Shown here: piece after piece, positions 21,790-33,125 of the stretch
Layout of the letters: the number at the start of each line of letters is the position of its first letter
Position numbering within the stretch: the first letter of the stretch is position 1
Origin: Candidatus Hebobacteria bacterium
GTDB lineage: Bacteria; Armatimonadota; Hebobacteria; Hebobacterales; Hebobacteraceae
Assembly: GCA_029821495.1 (NCBI GenBank)
Contig: JALGTG010000005.1
Span: 1-33,672, forward strand
Reading direction: 5' to 3'
Length of the DNA: 33,672 nt
Position numbers and translations under genes: made by a program
The notes under the pieces: model-generated
Seen by the model: only the letters and a program-made list of their open reading frames with translations
What the model was told of the DNA's origin: nothing
Database searches by the model: none

Positions 21790-23070
21790 TCATCTGGGCG
21801 CGCTCCGCATGCTGAAGTTGCCGGCCCTGTCGAACCTCAACTCGAGGGGATTGCCCAAGACAGTGACGCGCGGGTGGCGCCGCGCCTCTCCAAGCAACCC
21901 CTCTGACATCCACATGCGGCCGAGAGTGAGCGTGTCCGCGAGTCGCACTGCGCGCACGCGCTTCGGGTCAGGTGTCCCGAGGGCCGTCATCGCGACTTCC
22001 ATCAGCTCTTGGTCGTTGCGTAGGACGACGGGCAACTTGGCGCGATTCAGGAAACCTGTGTGCAACACGTTGGTCCTGACCGCGGCCCAGTCGATCTTCC
22101 TCAACAGCCGTTCCGTCACCAGATCGGCCAGCCCGGTCCCGAGCGCGTTGCCGCGCGACTCGGGCGTCAGATCCAGGACCGCGATGACGCCGATGTTGGT
22201 CTCCTCGAACTCGGGCTCGCCCCAGATCATGCGTCTTCCGATGACGTGGGTGTCGAAGCCCGCGCCGCTGATGTCCTTGCCAATCCGGTCGACTATGAGC
22301 AGGTCCAGATCGCGGAACGGAATCCGAGCCGCGTTGCGCCTCGCCCTCCGGAGCAGCGCCTTCTCGCGAGCGAGCACGACTCCGGCGGGGACCCCCACGA
22401 TGTCTGCGGTCTGATGATAGCCGTTCTCAAGGATCGCCAGCCCGCCGAGCACCCGCAGTCGTTCCAGCAGGATCTGAGCCGCCTCCGGGATGTCCTCCCG
22501 CAGGCTGGCACACCGGCGGGAGTGCATCGCAATCGCGCCCTTTCGCTTGCCGACGCCGATCGCTAGCATCTTGGCCAGCCCACTCTCGCAGACTCCTGTG
22601 AAGTCGGTGTGCTGCTTGATCCGATTCATCACGATGAGGCCGTCCGCCCCCAGCGCTTCGCGACTTGCGTAGACGGCGGTCCCGCTCCGCGTAGTTCCCA
22701 CCTGCACCGCAGCCATGGCGGCCCGTATTGGTGCCCCGACAGACTCTGGGGTGACGCCAAGCGCCCTCAGCAGCGCCGTCTGGCCAGCGGCAGTTGCGCC
22801 GCCGTGGCTTCCCATGGCAGGCAGGACAAATGGGCTCCCGCGGCGCTCCTTAACGAGTCTCACCACCGATGCGGTAATCGAGGCAATGTTGTCGATCCCC
22901 CGGCTGCCGACCGTGATGGCGACGCGATCGCCGCTGCTGATGCTCCGCGCGATACGCGAGGCGTCCCACCCGTGTCTGATCGCTTCCTCGAGGTCGCTCA
23001 CACGACGGGAGTAGAGCCGCTGCTCGATCTCCATCATCCGAGGCAGTCGCACTTCGGTCATCCTCTCCAC
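21790..23070 (-). CDS. LarA/DUF2088-like (lactate racemase domain) protein
   Basis: DRVAITVGSRGIDNIASITASVVRLVKERRGSPFVLPAMGSHGGATAAGQTALLRALGV resembles the LarA N-terminal domain family; function unassigned. Confidence 0.7.
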   Translation of the reverse strand: MERMTEVRLPRMMEIEQRLYSRRVSDLEEAIRHGWDASRIARSISSGDRVAITVGSRGIDNIASITASVVRLVKERRGSPFVLPAMGSHGGATAAGQTALLRALGVTPESVGAPIRAAMAAVQVGTTRSGTAVYASREALGADGLIVMNRIKQHTDFTGVCESGLAKMLAIGVGKRKGAIAMHSRRCASLREDIPEAAQILLERLRVLGGLAILENGYHQTADIVGVPAGVVLAREKALLRRARRNAARIPFRDLDLLIVDRIGKDISGAGFDTHVIGRRMIWGEPEFEETNIGVIAVLDLTPESRGNALGTGLADLVTERLLRKIDWAAVRTNVLHTGFLNRAKLPVVLRNDQELMEVAMTALGTPDPKRVRAVRLADTLTLGRMWMSEGLLGEARRHPRVTVLGNPLELRFDRAGNFSMRSAPR

Positions 23071-24210: not shown

Positions 24211-25602
24211 CTACTCGGTGAACTCCTTGGCGGCTTCGCGCGTCACGATGGCTCGCAGAGCAGTCGATGCGGCCAGCCTGACACTCGGATCTGGATCCCT
24301 GAGGCATTCGGCAATGGCACGCAGGCTGTCCGGCGCACCAGTTCGGCCGAGCGCCCGTGCTGCTTCGGCTCTCACCAACGGGTCGGGGTCTCGGAGAGCG
24401 AGTGCCAGGGCGGGAGCGGCGGGCAAGCCGACCTCGCCGAGCCGTTGAGCTGCTTCGGCGCGCCGGGCCGGGTCGCGGTCGCGCAGCCCAGCCAGCGCGT
24501 CTGAGACGTCGTCAGGATCTCTCGTGCCGCCGTCGGCCGCGAGGGCCGCTGTTCGTCTCTCAATGGCGGCGATCTCTTCATCGGTCATTCCGAGGAGTTG
24601 AAGCCCGGCGATTATGGCGGTTCGCACTCGTCGCGGCCCGTCGATAACGCACTCCACGACATCGCCCTCCTCGGAGAGCTCTGTCAGGTCTGGTTCAAGT
24701 TGCAGTAGGGCTTCAGTGAGGAACTCTCCGGCTCCGGGAGTGTTTGCCTCTGCCAGCAGCGAGAATGCACGTGCACGGACAAACCAGTCCGGGTCGGAAT
24801 TCGCCAGCCGCTGCAGGTCTTGCGCCGTCGCTTCCGCGTCAACACGGGCCATTACCTCCGCGACGGCCGAACGCACCTCAGGCTCCGGGTCCGTTTCGAG
24901 CAGTGGAAGAAGGACCTTCTTGACTGACGGCTCGCCGATGCTTCCCAGGGACTCCACGGCCAGCCTGCGGGCCTGCGTGCTCGGATTCGTGAGCTGTCCC
25001 ACGAGCGCCTCGACGGCCTCCTCACCCATTCGCACCAGGGTCGCTCCCGCCGTCTCCGCCAGCCGCCGGTCGGGTGAGGACAGCGCTTCCGCAAGACGGT
25101 CGGCAGCGTAGTCGGGGTCACGGGCGACAATGGCATACGATGCGGCGCGCGCCACATCGGGGTCATCCTGGCCCAGCGCCTCGAGGAGCTGCTCCAACGC
25201 TCGTTCGTCCCCAACGTCGCCGAGCGCCTGGATCGCCCTCAGCTTCGCTGGATACCCTCCCCGCTGTAGATCGCGCGACCACATGTCCAGGGCCCGCGTT
25301 TCCCTCAGCACCTCGATTGCAGCCGACCGAACCGTGGCGTCGTTCTCCTTCAGCAGCTCGTGGGCCGCTGCCGTTGCCGCGCGCACGTCCCCGAATCCGG
25401 TCAGCTCCTCCACCGCGGAGGACTGCTCCTCAACCGCTGCCAGGGTGGTAGCCGGCCTGCGAAGCCGGTCAGCTATGCGGCGGGCCCGGCCCAGCACGAC
25501 GGCATAGCGCCATCGCAGCGCTAACCGCAACGCCAGTGCTGCCGCCGCCAGACACAGAAGGAAAACCGCCAGCATCTTCACTACGCCAAGCTCAACGCCC
25601 AT
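24211..25602 (-). CDS. Membrane-anchored HEAT-repeat protein
   Basis: N-terminal TM (VVKMLAVFLLCLAAAALALRLAL), then serial HEAT/PBS-lyase-like repeats; start is 21 nt from the GT2 stop. Confidence 0.85.
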   Translation of the reverse strand: MGVELGVVKMLAVFLLCLAAAALALRLALRWRYAVVLGRARRIADRLRRPATTLAAVEEQSSAVEELTGFGDVRAATAAAHELLKENDATVRSAAIEVLRETRALDMWSRDLQRGGYPAKLRAIQALGDVGDERALEQLLEALGQDDPDVARAASYAIVARDPDYAADRLAEALSSPDRRLAETAGATLVRMGEEAVEALVGQLTNPSTQARRLAVESLGSIGEPSVKKVLLPLLETDPEPEVRSAVAEVMARVDAEATAQDLQRLANSDPDWFVRARAFSLLAEANTPGAGEFLTEALLQLEPDLTELSEEGDVVECVIDGPRRVRTAIIAGLQLLGMTDEEIAAIERRTAALAADGGTRDPDDVSDALAGLRDRDPARRAEAAQRLGEVGLPAAPALALALRDPDPLVRAEAARALGRTGAPDSLRAIAECLRDPDPSVRLAASTALRAIVTREAAKEFTE

Positions 25603-25623: not shown

Positions 25624-26904
25624 TCAGAGCCCCGGCGGCTCCGCGCTGCCCGCCACCCGGACCGTCTTCTCCCACCGAAGCTTCTCTTGTCTTACCACAT
25701 CAAGGTAGTGAGCCTTTGCGCAAACATACACCCAGACCTGGCAGTACGTGAAATACATCGCGGCCGCTACCAGCAGATTCAGCGGTGTGTGCTCTCGTTC
25801 CACCGCCAGCGATATGGCGAGCTCGAGCAGGAAGAGCGCGAATGCCAGCCCCCACAACACCATCAGTGGGTCGCTCGCGAGCCCCACCTTGGCTCCCACG
25901 ATCAGACCGGAGACGAGTATTAGGTCCGACAGCACCAGGATGATGAAGAAGAAGTGGTAGATGGTGAGCAGGTGCATCACTTCCAGGAGCAGGTCTCTGC
26001 GACGCATCCGGCCCAGCCGCGGGAGGAACTTCCGCACCACGTACGTTCCGCCCCGCGCCCACCTCAGCCGCTGCCGCAGCCACACGCTCCAGTGCTGTGG
26101 CTCCGGCTCCCACGTTACGGCGTAGGGCACGAACTTGATCCGGTATCCACCCTGGCTCAGCCGCACGGTCAACTCGGCGTCATCGGCGATCGCCGTCGGA
26201 TCCCAGCGACCTGCGCGCTCTAGAGCATCCCGTCGGATCACGTAATTGGTCCCCGGCAGTGAGGCCAGCCCGAACAGACGCCATCTGCCGGCTTGGATGA
26301 TCCACTGGAAACTGATGAACTCGATATTGACACACCGCGTTAGGAAGTTAGTTGCTCGGTTGAGTGTCCGCACCTTGCCTACGGCCGCCGCCAGCCGCTC
26401 GTCGGCCAGCATCTCTGCGACCAGGTATCGGAGGCTGCCTGGCTCGGGCGAGTTGTCCGCGTCGTACACCGCGAGCAGGTCGTGCGAGGCATACTGCAGC
26501 GCCAGGTTCAGAGCGTGCGACTTCCCCTTGCCTCCCAGTCCGCGGGGCAGGGAGACTAGCTTTACCCGCCGGTCGGTCGCCATTACGTGCTCGATCACGC
26601 GCCGCGTCCGGTCGTCCGACGAGTCGTCGATGACGATGATCTCCATCCGGTCACGCGGGTAGTCGAGGTGGAGCAGGCTCTCTAGAGTGCCTGCGATTAC
26701 GATCTCCTCATTGTGAGCGGGGACCAGAATCGAGACGCCGGGCCACTCCCCCGATACACTCGCTCTTCGTTTCGCTGCTGCCGCCTCCCGCGAGTACACA
26801 TACCCGGCAATCGTCAACACGACGTGGAAGATCAGTATGGCCCATGCGCCGACAACGCACAGCCCGAGCAGCACGTCACGGATCAGTGCGGGCCAGTTCG
26901 TCAC
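25624..26904 (-). CDS. Family 2 processive-type glycosyltransferase (BcsA/PgaC-like), membrane
   Basis: VSILVPAHNEEIVIAGTLESLL, IIVIDDSSDD, VYDADN, IADDAELTVRL, QRLRWARGG (D,D,D,QxxRW), N- and C-terminal TM segments. GTG start 26904 overlaps the upstream stop (26901). Confidence 0.9.
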   Translation of the reverse strand: MTNWPALIRDVLLGLCVVGAWAILIFHVVLTIAGYVYSREAAAAKRRASVSGEWPGVSILVPAHNEEIVIAGTLESLLHLDYPRDRMEIIVIDDSSDDRTRRVIEHVMATDRRVKLVSLPRGLGGKGKSHALNLALQYASHDLLAVYDADNSPEPGSLRYLVAEMLADERLAAAVGKVRTLNRATNFLTRCVNIEFISFQWIIQAGRWRLFGLASLPGTNYVIRRDALERAGRWDPTAIADDAELTVRLSQGGYRIKFVPYAVTWEPEPQHWSVWLRQRLRWARGGTYVVRKFLPRLGRMRRRDLLLEVMHLLTIYHFFFIILVLSDLILVSGLIVGAKVGLASDPLMVLWGLAFALFLLELAISLAVEREHTPLNLLVAAAMYFTYCQVWVYVCAKAHYLDVVRQEKLRWEKTVRVAGSAEPPGL

Positions 26905-29462
26905 GGCAGTCCTTCGTATGCGCGTCGTAGCACCGGCCAGGCTCTCTTGCGGTCTATCGCGGCTGTATGGTAGCACTCAATGCCGTTGGGCTCCGCCTCT
27001 CGGACTCGCTCGATGGTCTCTGCGATGTCGGCTGGCCTCATCCGCTGTGAACCAAAGTCCGTCAACTCGACATGGAGAATCACGCCTGCTCGGCCGTCCG
27101 TCCTCCGCACGAGCCGCGCTGCTGTTTCCGCCGCCCAGTCCGTGTTGAACACCTCCGGCCCGTAGATCGCGGCCCACTGCTGCCAGATGATCTCGAAGTT
27201 CACCCAGTCCGGCGGGTAAGGCCCGTCCAGCAGGGCATCAAGGTCGAAACCGGATTCCTCGGCCTGCCGCCCGGGCGAGAGAATGGCACCGTTATCGAGG
27301 GCATCGCTAATGGTCATGACGTAGCTTTCTATGCCTTCTTCAGCGATAGCTTTCATGCATTCCGAGAGGAACTCCGTCATTCCCTCCGCCCGGAACTGGC
27401 GCCAGACGGCTCCTCCCAAAGGTTCCCCTGGATGAGCATTGGCAAACTCCTCTCTGCACACATGGCAGTAGCAGGCCTGGTCACCAAACCAGTTAACGAC
27501 CGGCTCGCACAGCTCTATGCCATCCAGCGTAGGGTACCGGCGTCCCAGGTCTCGCATCAGACCGGCGAACCAGCGCCTTACCTCTGGGTTGCGAGTGCAT
27601 AGGAAGTACGCGGCATGGAGCCTGAGCGGATTGTGCGCCTTTCCGTCCTTGGTCCGTTCCCGCCACTTCGGGTGTCGCAGCCACATGCCGCGGTCTCGGC
27701 CGTTGTACATCCAGGCGACGACCCTGATGTCGCGATCATGGCAGGCATCCAGGAGATGGGCCAGCAAATCCTGCCGCCCCCATTCGCTGACGGACGCGCC
27801 GCGGTACCGTGTTCGATAGGCAGCTCCTCCATCTACATTATAAGCGTAGAAGAAGACAGTGTTGACCCCATTGAGAGATAACTGATCTGCGAGCGTCTCC
27901 GCCAGCTCTCTGCCTGAATGTCTGGAAGGCGAGTAAGCCCACGGATCCACGGTCACACCCTTGATGAACGGCCGCGCCGTTGTCTCTCTCAGCAGTTCGA
28001 CCATGGCAGCGCTTCGCGGCGGCGCGCTGATCTCGTGTTCGGGTGCGTTCGTTCTGACCGCCAGAGCTCTCTGCGCCAGGACATCCCACTTCGGGCCGAA
28101 GATCGTCTCTCGCAGAACAGCCTTGGGCTCCACTCTCACAGTCGCTTTGCCTGATGCCAGCGTCCGCCGAGAGTCGCTCACCCGCACCCCGAGGTCACGA
28201 AGGTCTGCAGTCTGCCAGCCATCCGACTCTCGGCTGGCCACGAATTCGAGGAAGGGAGCAGCCGGGGCCCAAAGGCCGAACGAGACAAGCGCCGTGGCGT
28301 CCCGCACTACCTCTTGCATCACCATCCGATCGACATCGGCCTGTGCGATGTGGCCTGCATCGCTTATCGCGATCGCCGCGGGGAGCAGGCCGCCCGCGCA
28401 GTAGGGCGGGGAGTCGTCCGGCTCGGCTATGCGCAGCCGAAAAGGATTGCCGCCATTGGCGGGGCCGGCCCACGCCACGGGATGAAGTCCGACCTCCCAG
28501 GCAAGACGCCAATGCTCCACTGCGTCCACGCCGCCGCTTGACACCAGTGCTATAGCCGCACCCAGCGACTCCGCTTCCCGTAGTCCTCGCACCGCCTGTG
28601 GGCGCTCCGACAGCGGCACCGCCCCCCAGTTCGTTGCTGCCATCACCGCTACGGGCACCCCTTGCGCCAGCACCGGCCGGACTACGCTTGGCACTTGCCT
28701 GCGTGTCGTCCAGATCGGTACATCCCGCAGCACGCACACCAGCCGCCGTGGCTCGCCTTCGTGCGGCTCCCCCAGGATCTCGTGCAGCGCATCGGCCCAG
28801 ATGCAGCCCGTCCAGAACCGTTCCCGTTTCAGCACCGGCCCCGCTGCCGCGTACCAGAGCCGTTCGCTCCGGGCGATGAAAGGGCGGCGGTTCGTGCCGC
28901 GCACTGCCCCAGAGAGGACTTGCGCGCCCTCCCGCGCTGCCACCGATGGGATCGGCACCCTTTCTGCGTGTCGCTGCCCGCTGTAGGAGATCGTCCAGGG
29001 AACGGCTGGTGCAGGACCTCCCTGCCCTGGTGCTGGCTCCAGCCCGAGCGCGTCGATCGCCGGGTCACCCAGGGACTCCACCCCTGGTCCTACCCACGTC
29101 GCCGTCCCCTCGTATGCAGAGAGATCGGCAGCGAAGCTCTGCCGGGCCGCCGCATCCGGCTTTCCGGCGAAGTAGAAAGCATGCGAGTATACCGCTAGCT
29201 GGACCGCCTCGTATTCGGCGGCCGAGGCAATCGCGCACCGTTGGTCGAAGTGAGCGATAAGTGTGTCGAGTGCCTGCGCCGACTCCGCGACCGCTGGCCC
29301 GCCCGGCCCCTCAGTCTCCACGACTATGAGCACGGAGGGAGGCAGTTCTTCCATCCGCAAGGAGGGGCTCTCGACCGGGGGCACAGGCTGCGAACGATGA
29401 CAGGCCGACAGCCATATGCATATCGGCACCATACAGGCAAGAAGCAGAACGCGACGCCACAT
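26901..29462 (-). CDS. Lipoprotein: DUF2334-deacetylase-like N-terminal region fused to GHL/PgaB-C-like glycoside hydrolase domain
   Basis: Signal with lipobox-like LSAC (MWRRVLLLACMVPICIWLSACHRS). N-terminal half parallels the DUF2334-like protein at 29466-31211; C-terminal half (IKGVTVDPWAYSP...NGVNTVFFYAYN...LDGIELCEPVVNWFGDQACYCHVC) parallels 31489-32547. Confidence 0.72.
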   Translation of the reverse strand: MWRRVLLLACMVPICIWLSACHRSQPVPPVESPSLRMEELPPSVLIVVETEGPGGPAVAESAQALDTLIAHFDQRCAIASAAEYEAVQLAVYSHAFYFAGKPDAAARQSFAADLSAYEGTATWVGPGVESLGDPAIDALGLEPAPGQGGPAPAVPWTISYSGQRHAERVPIPSVAAREGAQVLSGAVRGTNRRPFIARSERLWYAAAGPVLKRERFWTGCIWADALHEILGEPHEGEPRRLVCVLRDVPIWTTRRQVPSVVRPVLAQGVPVAVMAATNWGAVPLSERPQAVRGLREAESLGAAIALVSSGGVDAVEHWRLAWEVGLHPVAWAGPANGGNPFRLRIAEPDDSPPYCAGGLLPAAIAISDAGHIAQADVDRMVMQEVVRDATALVSFGLWAPAAPFLEFVASRESDGWQTADLRDLGVRVSDSRRTLASGKATVRVEPKAVLRETIFGPKWDVLAQRALAVRTNAPEHEISAPPRSAAMVELLRETTARPFIKGVTVDPWAYSPSRHSGRELAETLADQLSLNGVNTVFFYAYNVDGGAAYRTRYRGASVSEWGRQDLLAHLLDACHDRDIRVVAWMYNGRDRGMWLRHPKWRERTKDGKAHNPLRLHAAYFLCTRNPEVRRWFAGLMRDLGRRYPTLDGIELCEPVVNWFGDQACYCHVCREEFANAHPGEPLGGAVWRQFRAEGMTEFLSECMKAIAEEGIESYVMTISDALDNGAILSPGRQAEESGFDLDALLDGPYPPDWVNFEIIWQQWAAIYGPEVFNTDWAAETAARLVRRTDGRAGVILHVELTDFGSQRMRPADIAETIERVREAEPNGIECYHTAAIDRKRAWPVLRRAYEGLP

Positions 29463-29465
29463 GGT

Positions 29466-31211
29466 CTATGTCCGCCGTTGCAGGATAACCTGTGTTGCGT
29501 AGATGAGTATGAGCAGACCGCAAGCCGCGATTCCGACCAGGACCACGACGTGCGCAATTCTGTATATCAAGCGATTAGTTGCAGACTGCATACCACCCTC
29601 GAGGGTGAGGATCGGCCGGGGCCGCTGGCCCGGCGGATAGGTGATGAGCAACGCTCCCGGCACTACCTCGGCCCTGTCGCGGTCGTCGGAGCCGGGTCGC
29701 TCGAACGAATGGGTCCCGCCGTGCTCCGGGGCAATGAGCATCGCAGCCCACCGCTCGGGAATGAGCTCTCCGGCCAGGCAGGGCGCGTCAACCGAGTGGA
29801 TGTGCAGAGATTCTCCCTCCGTCCAGTTCCTCATTGCACGGAGGTTGGCGAACTCGTAGCCGAGTTGTCGCAGGCCGCGCACGAGCAACTCCACATTCGA
29901 GAGACTGGCGGCGGGATCAATGGTAGCTGTGACCCAGGCGTCTGTGAGCGGCGCGTAGCGGCGCGCGTCTGCGAGCATGGCCTCGACCTCGCCATGTCCC
30001 TCATTCAGAGGTGGCAGATTGTCCGGGATAATGCGGTGGCCGAAGCTGTCGACTCGGACGAGAAATGGAAACGCGGCCCGCGCGCCTTCCGCTTCGCGGC
30101 GCTGCCACAGAGTCGAACACAACGCAGCGCTGCCAGCCGTATCTTCGGCCGGCGCCGCCGCGCCCGGGCTGACCCATGCCACGGGATAGAGCCCGCACCT
30201 CGCCAGCTCCGACATCGCCTTCTCGAAGCGAGGGCGGACAGCACTCTCCCCAGTTTCTCCGCCGGCCCCTGCCCTACTCACTGTCGACGGCGACTGCGCG
30301 TAGAGGCCGTGCGACACAATGCTCGCGCCGTTCGCCTGCGCGCCGCGCAGCAGTCCCACCAGCGTCCGCTTGCTACTCAGGGGCAGGCTCCGGCCTGTTG
30401 CTGGGTCCCGGATCTCTGGCGCCACCGCGATCGCGAAGGGCACCCCGGCGTGGTGGAAGTACTCGATCAGCCCGGCGAGCGCATTCGTCTCACTTTCCGC
30501 CGATATCCCTGCAATGCAGATGAGCGCCTGCCTGGAGTCGGGATGTCTCTCTCCGAGAACACTGTGCAGTTGGTCGCACAATACGAAGTGGCTTCCGCCA
30601 TCCGGGGTCTCAAACAACGGGAGCTCAGCGAAATACCAGAACTCTCCACTGCGGACCGCGTAGGGTAGCGGCTGCCCATCTCCTTGAGCGAGCGCCAGTA
30701 CATGACACACATCCGGCCGTGTCACCACGATCTCGGGCAGCAGCGCGTTGGCCCGGCGATAGTGCTGGCCCTCGTATACGACGCGCCTCGGATGAGTCGA
30801 TGACTCGGTCTCTCCGAGACGAAACCCATAGCGTCCCAGAGAGAACCGGTCGGCGAGCTGTTGCAGATTGGCGCCGAGCCAACAGACGGGCCGGTCGCTG
30901 TCATAGATATCGACCAGGAGGGCGTCGGTCAGATCGGCTCCCTCCATCGTGCCGAGGTAGACGGTAGCGTCATAGCGTGTGATATCGCCTGCCCGGTAGT
31001 CTTGGGTGGAAACCGTCGCTGCGCTGTAGTCGAAGTGGCCCAGCAGGTCCAGCACTGCAGCCACAGCACGCTCCTCCGCCGACCCGGGCGCCGCAGCGTC
31101 GTGAACGACCATAACGCGCTTGCCCGCGGCTTCAACGGAACTGGCGGGCAGAGGGGTCAGCAGCAGCAGAATGGTCGTGACAGTGGTTCTCATGAGGACA
31201 CATACATGCAT
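29466..31211 (-). CDS. DUF2334 (polysaccharide deacetylase-like) membrane protein
   Basis: N-terminal signal (start 31211 or 31193), FWYFAELPLF...LCDQLHSVLG...GLIEYFHHAGVPFAIAVAPEIRDP...LVGLLRGAQANGASIVSHGL, and C-terminal TM (AHVVVLVGIAACGLLILIYATQVIL). Confidence 0.7.
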   Translation of the reverse strand: MHVCVLMRTTVTTILLLLTPLPASSVEAAGKRVMVVHDAAAPGSAEERAVAAVLDLLGHFDYSAATVSTQDYRAGDITRYDATVYLGTMEGADLTDALLVDIYDSDRPVCWLGANLQQLADRFSLGRYGFRLGETESSTHPRRVVYEGQHYRRANALLPEIVVTRPDVCHVLALAQGDGQPLPYAVRSGEFWYFAELPLFETPDGGSHFVLCDQLHSVLGERHPDSRQALICIAGISAESETNALAGLIEYFHHAGVPFAIAVAPEIRDPATGRSLPLSSKRTLVGLLRGAQANGASIVSHGLYAQSPSTVSRAGAGGETGESAVRPRFEKAMSELARCGLYPVAWVSPGAAAPAEDTAGSAALCSTLWQRREAEGARAAFPFLVRVDSFGHRIIPDNLPPLNEGHGEVEAMLADARRYAPLTDAWVTATIDPAASLSNVELLVRGLRQLGYEFANLRAMRNWTEGESLHIHSVDAPCLAGELIPERWAAMLIAPEHGGTHSFERPGSDDRDRAEVVPGALLITYPPGQRPRPILTLEGGMQSATNRLIYRIAHVVVLVGIAACGLLILIYATQVILQRRT

Positions 31212-31246
31212 TCCCAGCGCGAGGGCACAGGAAACACAACGCTAGC

Positions 31247-31275
31247 ATAGTATCATGCCACATCGGGCCCGGCAA
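31247..31275 (-). promoter_or_regulatory. Possible promoter of the minus-strand polysaccharide-locus operon
   Basis: Minus strand TTGCCG-17 bp-TACTAT (4/6 matches in each box), ~35-55 nt upstream of the 31211/31193 starts. Confidence 0.3.
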
Positions 31276-31488
31276 AGCAACGCGGCCGGGGCCACATACG
31301 GGTCTCGTGCCGCAGGCAAGAAGGATGCCCGGCCGGACGCGGAGGTCATCCGGCCGGGATGCGCCTGTGTCGGCGGCTGACTGGGCGTCGTGCCGCCGCC
31401 AGGTCGCCTAAGGTCACTGCCCCCCTGTTACTGCTCCCGCGAATCAACGCAGAGCCGAGACGTTCGATCGACGCCGGCGCCTCCGCTG

Positions 31489-32547
31489 CTAGATTCCCGG
31501 CCCAAGCCATGCCACCCGCAGGCGTCCAGGGGCGTCCTTTGTCCTCTCAAGTTGATAGCTGTCGTAGATGTCAATGCCGTAGGGACGGCCTTGCACAGCG
31601 GCGGCGATGGTGCGTCCCAGGCTGGGCCCGTCGAGACTGCCGCACCCGAAGTCCGTCACCTCAATGTGTGCGATCAGCCGCGCCCTGCCTTCGACCATTC
31701 GCTTCGCGTCGCTCACGGCCCCGCCTGTCCAGTCCGCAGTGAATGTGTTCTGGTCCTCGTACAGCGCAGCCCACTGCTGCCAGATTAGCTCCGCCTGTAT
31801 CACGTCCGGCCTCGACGGGGCGGTCAACACTCCCTCCAGGTCGAAACCGGTCGCGTCCCGCACCTGCCCGCTCGACATGAGATTCCCGTCGCGGCCGGCG
31901 GTGAAGACTGTGGTGACGTGGCTTTCCATCTCGTAGCTGTGCGCCAGCCGACCGGTCGCAGCCAGCAGACGGGTCAGCCCATCAGCGCGGAACTCCCGCC
32001 ACTTCTTCCCAGGGGCCGGCTGCCCCGGGTGCGTCTCGTGGAACTGATCCGTGCAGTGCTCGCAGTAGCACGTGTGGTCACCCCACCGGTCGATCTGGAA
32101 TTCAGCCATGTCGATGCCGTCCAGGTCGGGGTAGCGTGTCAGCAGGTCGTCTACCAACCCCAGCCACCACTGCATCACCTCGGGGTTGCGCACGCACAGA
32201 AGGTAGCTGTCGCCACCGGGCTTGTAGTCGGCCCCGTCCTTCGTCTTCTGGCGCCAGTCCGGGTGGGCTTCCCACATCTGCTTGTGCTCCACCCCGTTGA
32301 GCCAAGCGATCACCTTGATGCTCCGGTGGTGCGCCTGCCGGATCACCTGGCCCAGCAGATCCTGCCGCCCGTAGTCTTCCATTATGCTGCCGGGGTAGGT
32401 GGTGTGATAGCGAGCGCCGTAGACCTTGTTGTAGGCGTAGAAGTAGACCAGGTTCACTCCCTGCTCCGCCCACGACTCGGTTAGCCTCTCCGCGAGCTGT
32501 CCTGCAGACAGCCCTCTGCCGTAGTAGTAGCCGGCGTCGAATCGCAC
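31489..32547 (-). CDS. GHL/PgaB-C-like glycoside hydrolase domain protein (probably frameshifted C-terminal part)
   Basis: Co-linear with the C-terminal half of 26901-29462: GVNLVYFYAYN, LDGIDMAEFQIDRWGDHTCYCEHC, IWQQWAALY, HIEVTDFG. No signal peptide or SD at the GTG start. Confidence 0.72.
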   Translation of the reverse strand: MRFDAGYYYGRGLSAGQLAERLTESWAEQGVNLVYFYAYNKVYGARYHTTYPGSIMEDYGRQDLLGQVIRQAHHRSIKVIAWLNGVEHKQMWEAHPDWRQKTKDGADYKPGGDSYLLCVRNPEVMQWWLGLVDDLLTRYPDLDGIDMAEFQIDRWGDHTCYCEHCTDQFHETHPGQPAPGKKWREFRADGLTRLLAATGRLAHSYEMESHVTTVFTAGRDGNLMSSGQVRDATGFDLEGVLTAPSRPDVIQAELIWQQWAALYEDQNTFTADWTGGAVSDAKRMVEGRARLIAHIEVTDFGCGSLDGPSLGRTIAAAVQGRPYGIDIYDSYQLERTKDAPGRLRVAWLGPGI

Positions 32548-32996
32548 GCGGGGACCAGTGGAACGGCAGGGGCCGGCACCGGACTCGGTGCGCTGGCGGC
32601 AGCAGGCGGCGGTTCGCTGGCTCGCAGCGCGGCCTCATAAGAGGGGGTGGCCTTGTCCAGCGCCGGCCCAGGCAAACGGTCGTTTCCTGTAGGCGGTCTT
32701 CTTGGCGTGGGGGAGGCGGCCGCGTCTGCCCGCTCGGGCAGGGGTTCAGGGACGGCGGGGAGCGCGAATTGGGCGTGCCGCTCCTCCGTGCGCGTCACTG
32801 CTGGCGCCTCTTGGGCTGATTCGGGAGCGCGGCTCCCCGCTGTGTGGTCTTGGGTTGGTGGTTTCGCATCCCAGAACAGGTGAGGGGACCTTTCCCAGCT
32901 ACGGCGCGTGCCGAAGTAGGCCGCTACCATGAGTAGCGCGACAAGGGGAAGAGGTAGGACCAGCTTCAATATGTCGGCCCGGCCGCGTCGTCGCAT
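32481..32996 (-). CDS. TM anchor and Pro/Ala-rich linker, likely N-terminal part of the 31489-32547 protein
   Basis: MRRRGRADILKLVLPLPLVALLMVAAYFG TM segment, then a low-complexity P/A/E linker; overlaps the hydrolase ORF in a different frame. Confidence 0.55.
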   Translation of the reverse strand: MRRRGRADILKLVLPLPLVALLMVAAYFGTRRSWERSPHLFWDAKPPTQDHTAGSRAPESAQEAPAVTRTEERHAQFALPAVPEPLPERADAAASPTPRRPPTGNDRLPGPALDKATPSYEAALRASEPPPAAASAPSPVPAPAVPLVPACDSTPATTTAEGCLQDSSRRG

Positions 32997-33097: not shown

Positions 33098-33125
33098 AGA
33101 GCCAAGGGTTTTCACCCTTGGCTCT
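33098..33125 (-). terminator. Rho-independent terminator (minus strand)
   Basis: On the minus strand AGAGCCAAGGGT-GAAA-ACCCTTGGCTCT-TTTCTATT: perfect 12-bp stem, 4-nt loop, T-rich tail. Confidence 0.75.

Follow-up and report, generated by a model that had tools for sequence, protein, structure and literature searches.

The closest described systems to the locus considered here are the PNAG loci (pgaABCD and icaADBC), the Pel system with its PelA protein (CE21/GH166), and the B. subtilis ydaJKLMN and Listeria pssA-E loci, the latter two being small synthase operons around a GT2 glycosyltransferase (PMC4125290, PMC13274460). PelA is built in the order hydrolase, mixed alpha/beta, deacetylase and beta-rich domain; its mixed alpha/beta domain has been proposed to bind carbohydrate or PelB, and P. 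aeruginosa biofilm formation needs the PelA deacetylase residues (PMC12022489). In NDST1 and Agd3, a role in polymer binding or guidance has been proposed for the N-terminal domain (PMC10864358). Among the literature searched, we found nothing on exopolysaccharide loci under the name DUF2334.

We analyzed a block of genes from a member of the class Hebobacteria, lying in a stretch of 33,672 nucleotides (the window, contig C130 of a 3.0 Mb assembly in 317 contigs that is 91% complete). The initial annotation had read this block as a locus that assembles and trims a surface glycan with a rearranged PgaB-like toolkit. The modules, fold classes, coupling and neighbourhood of that reading stand, whereas deacetylation does not, and the best fold match of the DUF2334 protein is to PelA, not PgaB. 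The block is most likely a variant of the PNAG, Pel and Yda/Pss kind that is a member of none of them.

As in the PNAG loci, the GT2 is nearest to PgaC/IcaA (the nearest NCBIfam model being TIGR03937 PgaC_IcaA, at 162.6 bits, under its cut-off of 422.3), and the lipoprotein has a NodB-like N-half and a TIM-barrel C-half in the PgaB order, with a barrel that overlays the PgaB C-terminal domain. The barrel, however, belongs to GHL6/GHL10 rather than GHL13, the lipoprotein carries an extra Rossmann-like domain, and the catalytic NodB deacetylase motifs are lost in five of five lipoproteins. PgaB-type GHL13 (GH153, PF14883) gave no match in eight genomes of the family, with an E. coli control that matched, and neither a PgaA porin nor PgaD is found among the block genes, in agreement with the porin-less reading of the initial annotation. 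With PelA, the block shares the Rossmann-like and NodB-like domains and, in the lipoprotein, a hydrolase in the same polypeptide. The lipoprotein order is, however, Rossmann-like, NodB-like, hydrolase, with the hydrolase C-terminal rather than N-terminal and of another family; the CE21 metal triad and catalytic acid are lost, and none of PelB-G was seen in the block. The yda and pss loci, which we take to include a DUF2334-type protein, differ in that the block DUF2334 appears inactive by motif loss. They differ also in their BcsB-like protein and GGDEF c-di-GMP receptor, which a domain search of the block proteins did not find (defining genes from PMC4125290, PMC13274460).

Loci outside the class should be considered as well. 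A Streptomyces plasmid locus contains wecB, GT2, DUF2334 and GH113. A Comamonadaceae plasmid locus (L121, CP099603.1) contains wecB, GT2, DUF2334, a TPR/NfrA_C porin and DUF4434, which is presumably a TIM barrel. Both resemble the block in placing a GT2 next to a TIM-barrel hydrolase and a DUF2334 protein that has a Rossmann-like domain, and differ from it in that DUF2334 is motif-complete, the proteins are separate, wecB is present and, in Comamonadaceae, there is a porin. As the three partners recur in unrelated phyla, a polysaccharide role of the DUF2334-GT2 pairing is supported generally. L121 also resembles the E. coli Nfr (N4 glycan receptor) system plus a motif-complete DUF2334; the wecB requirement of Nfr points to UDP-ManNAc as precursor (PMC8669472, PMC8669469). 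Near the Hebobacteria block, we found no nucleotide-sugar gene. A Wza-type Poly_export gene lies away from the block in six of the eight family genomes and is absent from the window's incomplete assembly.

Gene layout and conservation in the family

In transcription order, the block consists of the TM/Pro-rich ORF, the GHL ORF, the DUF2334 membrane protein, the lipoprotein, the GT2 and the HEAT protein, all on the minus strand (Table 1). The tight spacing described in the initial annotation was confirmed: the GT2 starts with the GTG at 26904, which overlaps the lipoprotein stop (GTGA, 26901-26904), and the lipoprotein begins 3 nt past the stop of the DUF2334 gene. The HEAT gene, last of the tight group, starts 21 nt past the GT2, and the same gap is found in L076, L077, L078 and L081. 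The GHL gene is set off upstream by ~270 nt that include a weak terminator-like hairpin, and may thus have a separate transcript, although the total of terminator-like hairpins in the pattern scan was not above chance. Downstream of the block (window 21790-23070) lies a gene for a nickel-pincer-cofactor isomerase of group 22 (LarA-like), in conserved synteny in relatives.

Table 1 Features of the block and its flanks, with positions in the window.
Feature	Position	Strand	Evidence
HEAT-repeat protein, 463 aa, one N-terminal TM	24211..25602	-	Pfam HEAT_2 1.8e-58
GT2 glycosyltransferase, 426 aa	25624..26904	-	PF13641 8.4e-34; motifs and TM
Lipoprotein, 853 aa; N-half Rossmann-like plus pseudo-NodB (DUF2334-like), C-half a GHL TIM barrel	26901..29462	-	Pfam, alignment, predicted structure, Foldseek
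DUF2334 protein, 581 aa: signal peptide, Rossmann-like, NodB-like, C-terminal TM 552-570	29466..31211	-	PF10096 6.6e-15
Terminator-like hairpin, weak T tail, between GHL and DUF2334 genes	31328..31358	-	Pattern scan
GHL hydrolase domain, 352-aa ORF, downstream gene piece	31489..32547	-	GHL10 2.9e-12
N-terminal TM and Pro-rich linker, 171-aa ORF, upstream gene piece	32481..32996	-	Matches N-terminal part of single ORF in L035, L037, L041
Terminator-like hairpin with T tail, upstream of block	33098..33125	-	Pattern scan

The conservation of the neighbourhood, named as a check in the initial annotation, was found in six other genomes of the family, where the gene order recurs completely or, at contig ends, partially. 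G005 and G007 carry the whole series from GHL through DUF2334, lipoprotein and GT2 to HEAT; in G003, G004 and G006, contig ends cut it short. The GTGA overlap is identical in all six genomes checked (the window, L076, L077, L078, L079 and L081). Among 61 sampled genomes, long relatives of the lipoprotein, with both halves, are found in the same family only. Searching 84,980 species genomes with short peptide patterns, by which distant relatives can be missed, yielded six loci, all in those same-family genomes. Judging from these two sequence surveys, the lipoprotein is found only in this family. Named relatives of the lipoprotein are mostly from Armatimonadota, including Candidatus Hebobacterum abditum and other Candidatus Hebobacteria (class described in PMC10290634), with one record labelled Bacillota.

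Two of the family genomes should be read with care. In G001 (CP070816.1, presented as one chromosome), the block appears to be divided between two distant places, which we rejected as a scaffolding artefact, as both sides end in 100 N (L034:4860-4959 and L035:7409-7508) and the terminal 141 nt of the two distant edges are identical; the sequence was probably mis-scaffolded through the DUF2334 gene. In G006 (L042), the GT2 gene is spread over three frames and the lipoprotein gene over two, reflecting frameshifts or assembly errors.

Of the TM segments of the GT2, one is N-terminal and about three are C-terminal; the protein has a DxD motif (DAD148) and a QxxRW motif (QRLRW278), and its dN/dS is 0.10. 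A longer, 450-aa form starting at 26976 was rejected as starting too early, the 426-aa form being supported. Outside the family, we found no DUF2334 or GHL neighbour for the GT2 relatives of L124-L129. As the GT2 of L124 and L125, from another family of the class, is 42% identical and stands without these partners, such a GT2 can presumably work alone.

The DUF2334-like domains

The DUF2334 membrane protein exceeds the gathering cut-off of PF10096 (55.7 vs 26 bits). A PDB sequence search with the protein and its profile gave nothing useful. Its predicted structure (pLDDT 75, pTM 0.70), compared with the PDB by Foldseek, matched PelA first (9cgy, E 1.9e-10) and human NDST1 second (8cd0, 8.1e-9), followed by CE4-type 2vyo, ArnD 8t0j and amidotransferase-type domains, the last probably matching the N-terminal part. 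The protein thus presents the Rossmann-like and NodB-like arrangement of PelA and NDST1, which upholds the expected fold; as the rmsd over the full-length matches is 10-12 Å, the domains match, while their mutual orientation probably does not. The lipoprotein had been described as one DUF2334-like and one GHL-like half, and Pfam confirms the latter. The N-half has no match to PF10096 or to any Pfam family, and its link to DUF2334 comes from the alignment, the tree and an identity of ~25% to the adjoining DUF2334 protein.

To follow the motifs, we aligned the block proteins with 13 canonical DUF2334 proteins, of which 10 come from Armatimonadota and three are plasmid-encoded in other phyla. The motifs R-[IL]-E-D, H-G-x-T-H, P-H-Y and [FY]-H are all present in 13 of 13 canonical proteins; the full set of four is found in none of the seven block DUF2334 proteins and in none of the five lipoprotein halves. 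In the block DUF2334 proteins, both His of HxxxH are kept in 0/7, P-H-Y in 0/7 and the Asp in 1/7. In the lipoproteins, the Asp in RDV and His327 are invariant, and the HGxTH segment and other motifs are lost. The losses differ between genera, and no family member examined has the metal and acid motifs in either of its DUF2334-like proteins. A working deacetylase in the locus, as the initial annotation implied, is thus not supported, and its 'deacetylase-like' should read pseudo-deacetylase. At the same time, dN/dS (Nei-Gojobori) is 0.17-0.25 for DUF2334 (three pairs, two of them with dS below 0.8) and 0.16-0.17 for the lipoprotein, which indicates that the domains are under purifying selection. 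Motif loss combined with low dN/dS is most naturally read as a non-catalytic function that was kept. On these sequence grounds, both NodB-type domains of the block are probably dead DEACETYLASES, i.e. pseudo-deacetylases, and would hold or guide a polymer rather than edit it. A second DUF2334 gene elsewhere in the genome (C184) has complete motifs; as no GT2 homologue adjoins it, it was ruled out as a second copy of the block.

Hydrolase barrels and the origin of the lipoprotein

The lipoprotein (lipobox LSAC) exceeds in its C-half the gathering cut-offs of GHL6 (43.4/35 bits) and GHL10 (29.5/27.9), and the upstream GHL ORF exceeds that of GHL10 (46.8/27.9); to our knowledge, these are hydrolase-like families without a defined function. 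In an AlphaFold model of the lipoprotein from 10 sequences (pTM 0.49), the C-half barrel has a pLDDT of mostly 75-90. The N-half is less certain, with a weak NodB part and several stretches under pLDDT 50. By Foldseek against the PDB, the C-half matched glycosidase TIM barrels, including the PgaB C-terminal domain (4p7q, E 1.1e-8), whose target-normalised TM-score of 0.70 is the highest among the 50 matches listed, although many other TIM barrels among them equal it in E-value. The proposed hydrolase fold, a TIM barrel overlaying the PgaB glycosidase domain, is thereby borne out. Across 11 barrels of the lipoprotein and GHL proteins, four acidic residues never vary: D506, E653, E757 and E799 in the numbering of the lipoprotein. 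In the eight-strand barrel model, E757 sits at strand 6, while E653 and E799 lie past strands 4 and 7, respectively, and we take the strand-4 and strand-7 positions (E653, E799) to be the acid/base and nucleophile of clan GH-A. From the predicted structure and the invariant acidic residues, we infer that the barrels of the lipoprotein and of the anchored protein are glycan hydrolases.

The second membrane-anchored GHL-like protein of the initial annotation holds up by its GHL10 match but is not one reading frame in the window, where the GHL and TM/linker ORFs are in different frames with a 67-nt overlap. Five relatives encode a TM anchor or linker together with the GHL domain in a single ORF, 515-597 aa long from stop to stop (one contains an N gap and one is truncated by the contig end). 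As these relatives have about 24-30 additional residues between the linker motif and the barrel, the window has either a frame-changing deletion or an assembly error. The barrel's dN/dS against L035 is 0.18 (Nei-Gojobori), such that any break in the gene would be recent or not real.

In FastTree phylogenies, the lipoprotein C-halves and the block GHL proteins form a group separate from the phylum's other GHL proteins (supports 0.991 and 0.995), and the lipoprotein N-halves group with the block DUF2334 proteins, apart from canonical DUF2334 (0.994), on a long branch (1.6) for which long-branch attraction is possible. As each half is nearest to its own single-domain neighbour, the trees suggest that the lipoprotein arose by duplication and fusion of two neighbours.

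Readings of the locus

On balance, we favour reading the block as a locus for a polysaccharide synthase, accompanied by hydrolases and by pseudo-deacetylases that would bind glycan non-catalytically. The GT2, judging by its family, TM layout and QxxRW, would polymerise a sugar and pass the polymer across the inner membrane; outside that membrane, the DUF2334 protein and the lipoprotein N-half would bind and guide the nascent chain, and the GHL barrels of the lipoprotein (itself the presumed product of fusion) and of the membrane-anchored hydrolase may cut or trim it. The HEAT protein is probably a scaffold on the cytoplasmic side. Weighing against this reading are the lack of a porin in the block and of a nucleotide-sugar gene near it, the weak NodB part of the lipoprotein model and the partnerless GT2 of L124 and L125. 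For Hebobacteria, an uncultured class of marine sediments, the reading is a first hypothesis of how a surface glycan may be assembled. A fold kept under selection while its chemistry was dropped suggests a separable non-catalytic role, for which the block is a natural test system. Only tentatively would we go further and propose a porin-less synthase that dispenses with deacetylation, essential in PNAG and Pel, in which the two dead NodB-type modules form a polymer-binding conduit, one of them duplicated and fused to a hydrolase in an order permuted relative to PelA.

Other explanations should be considered when referring to these results. The locus might instead modify a glycolipid, the GT2 adding one sugar to a membrane lipid in the manner of HpnI or ceramide glucosyltransferase and the periplasmic proteins trimming or binding the product. 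The GT2 does match the HpnI and HpnB models and ceramide glucosyltransferase chains, but at 69 bits for the former against 162.6 for PgaC/IcaA; moreover, it has QxxRW, and a single sugar would hardly call for two GHL barrels. We consider this reading unlikely. Less probable again is that both DUF2334 domains are active esterases or deacetylases through another set of residues, with the polymer deacetylated as by PgaB and PelA. Such activity would suit the PelA/NDST1-like fold and domain layout, as well as the invariant Asp and His327 of the lipoprotein. However, none of 12 sequences combines the Asp with the two His of HxxxH and the later His motifs, the losses vary by genus, and PelA alanine mutants of D517, D519, H589 and H593 have no detectable esterase activity (PMC12022489). 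The least probable reading is that the block turns over an existing envelope glycan, with no exopolysaccharide made and the GT2 acting in repair or decoration, as might be argued from the two hydrolases, the lack of an exporter in the block and its wider synteny in relatives, which includes a penicillin-binding protein. The conserved translational coupling of GT2 and lipoprotein nonetheless suggests a stoichiometric partner of a synthase.
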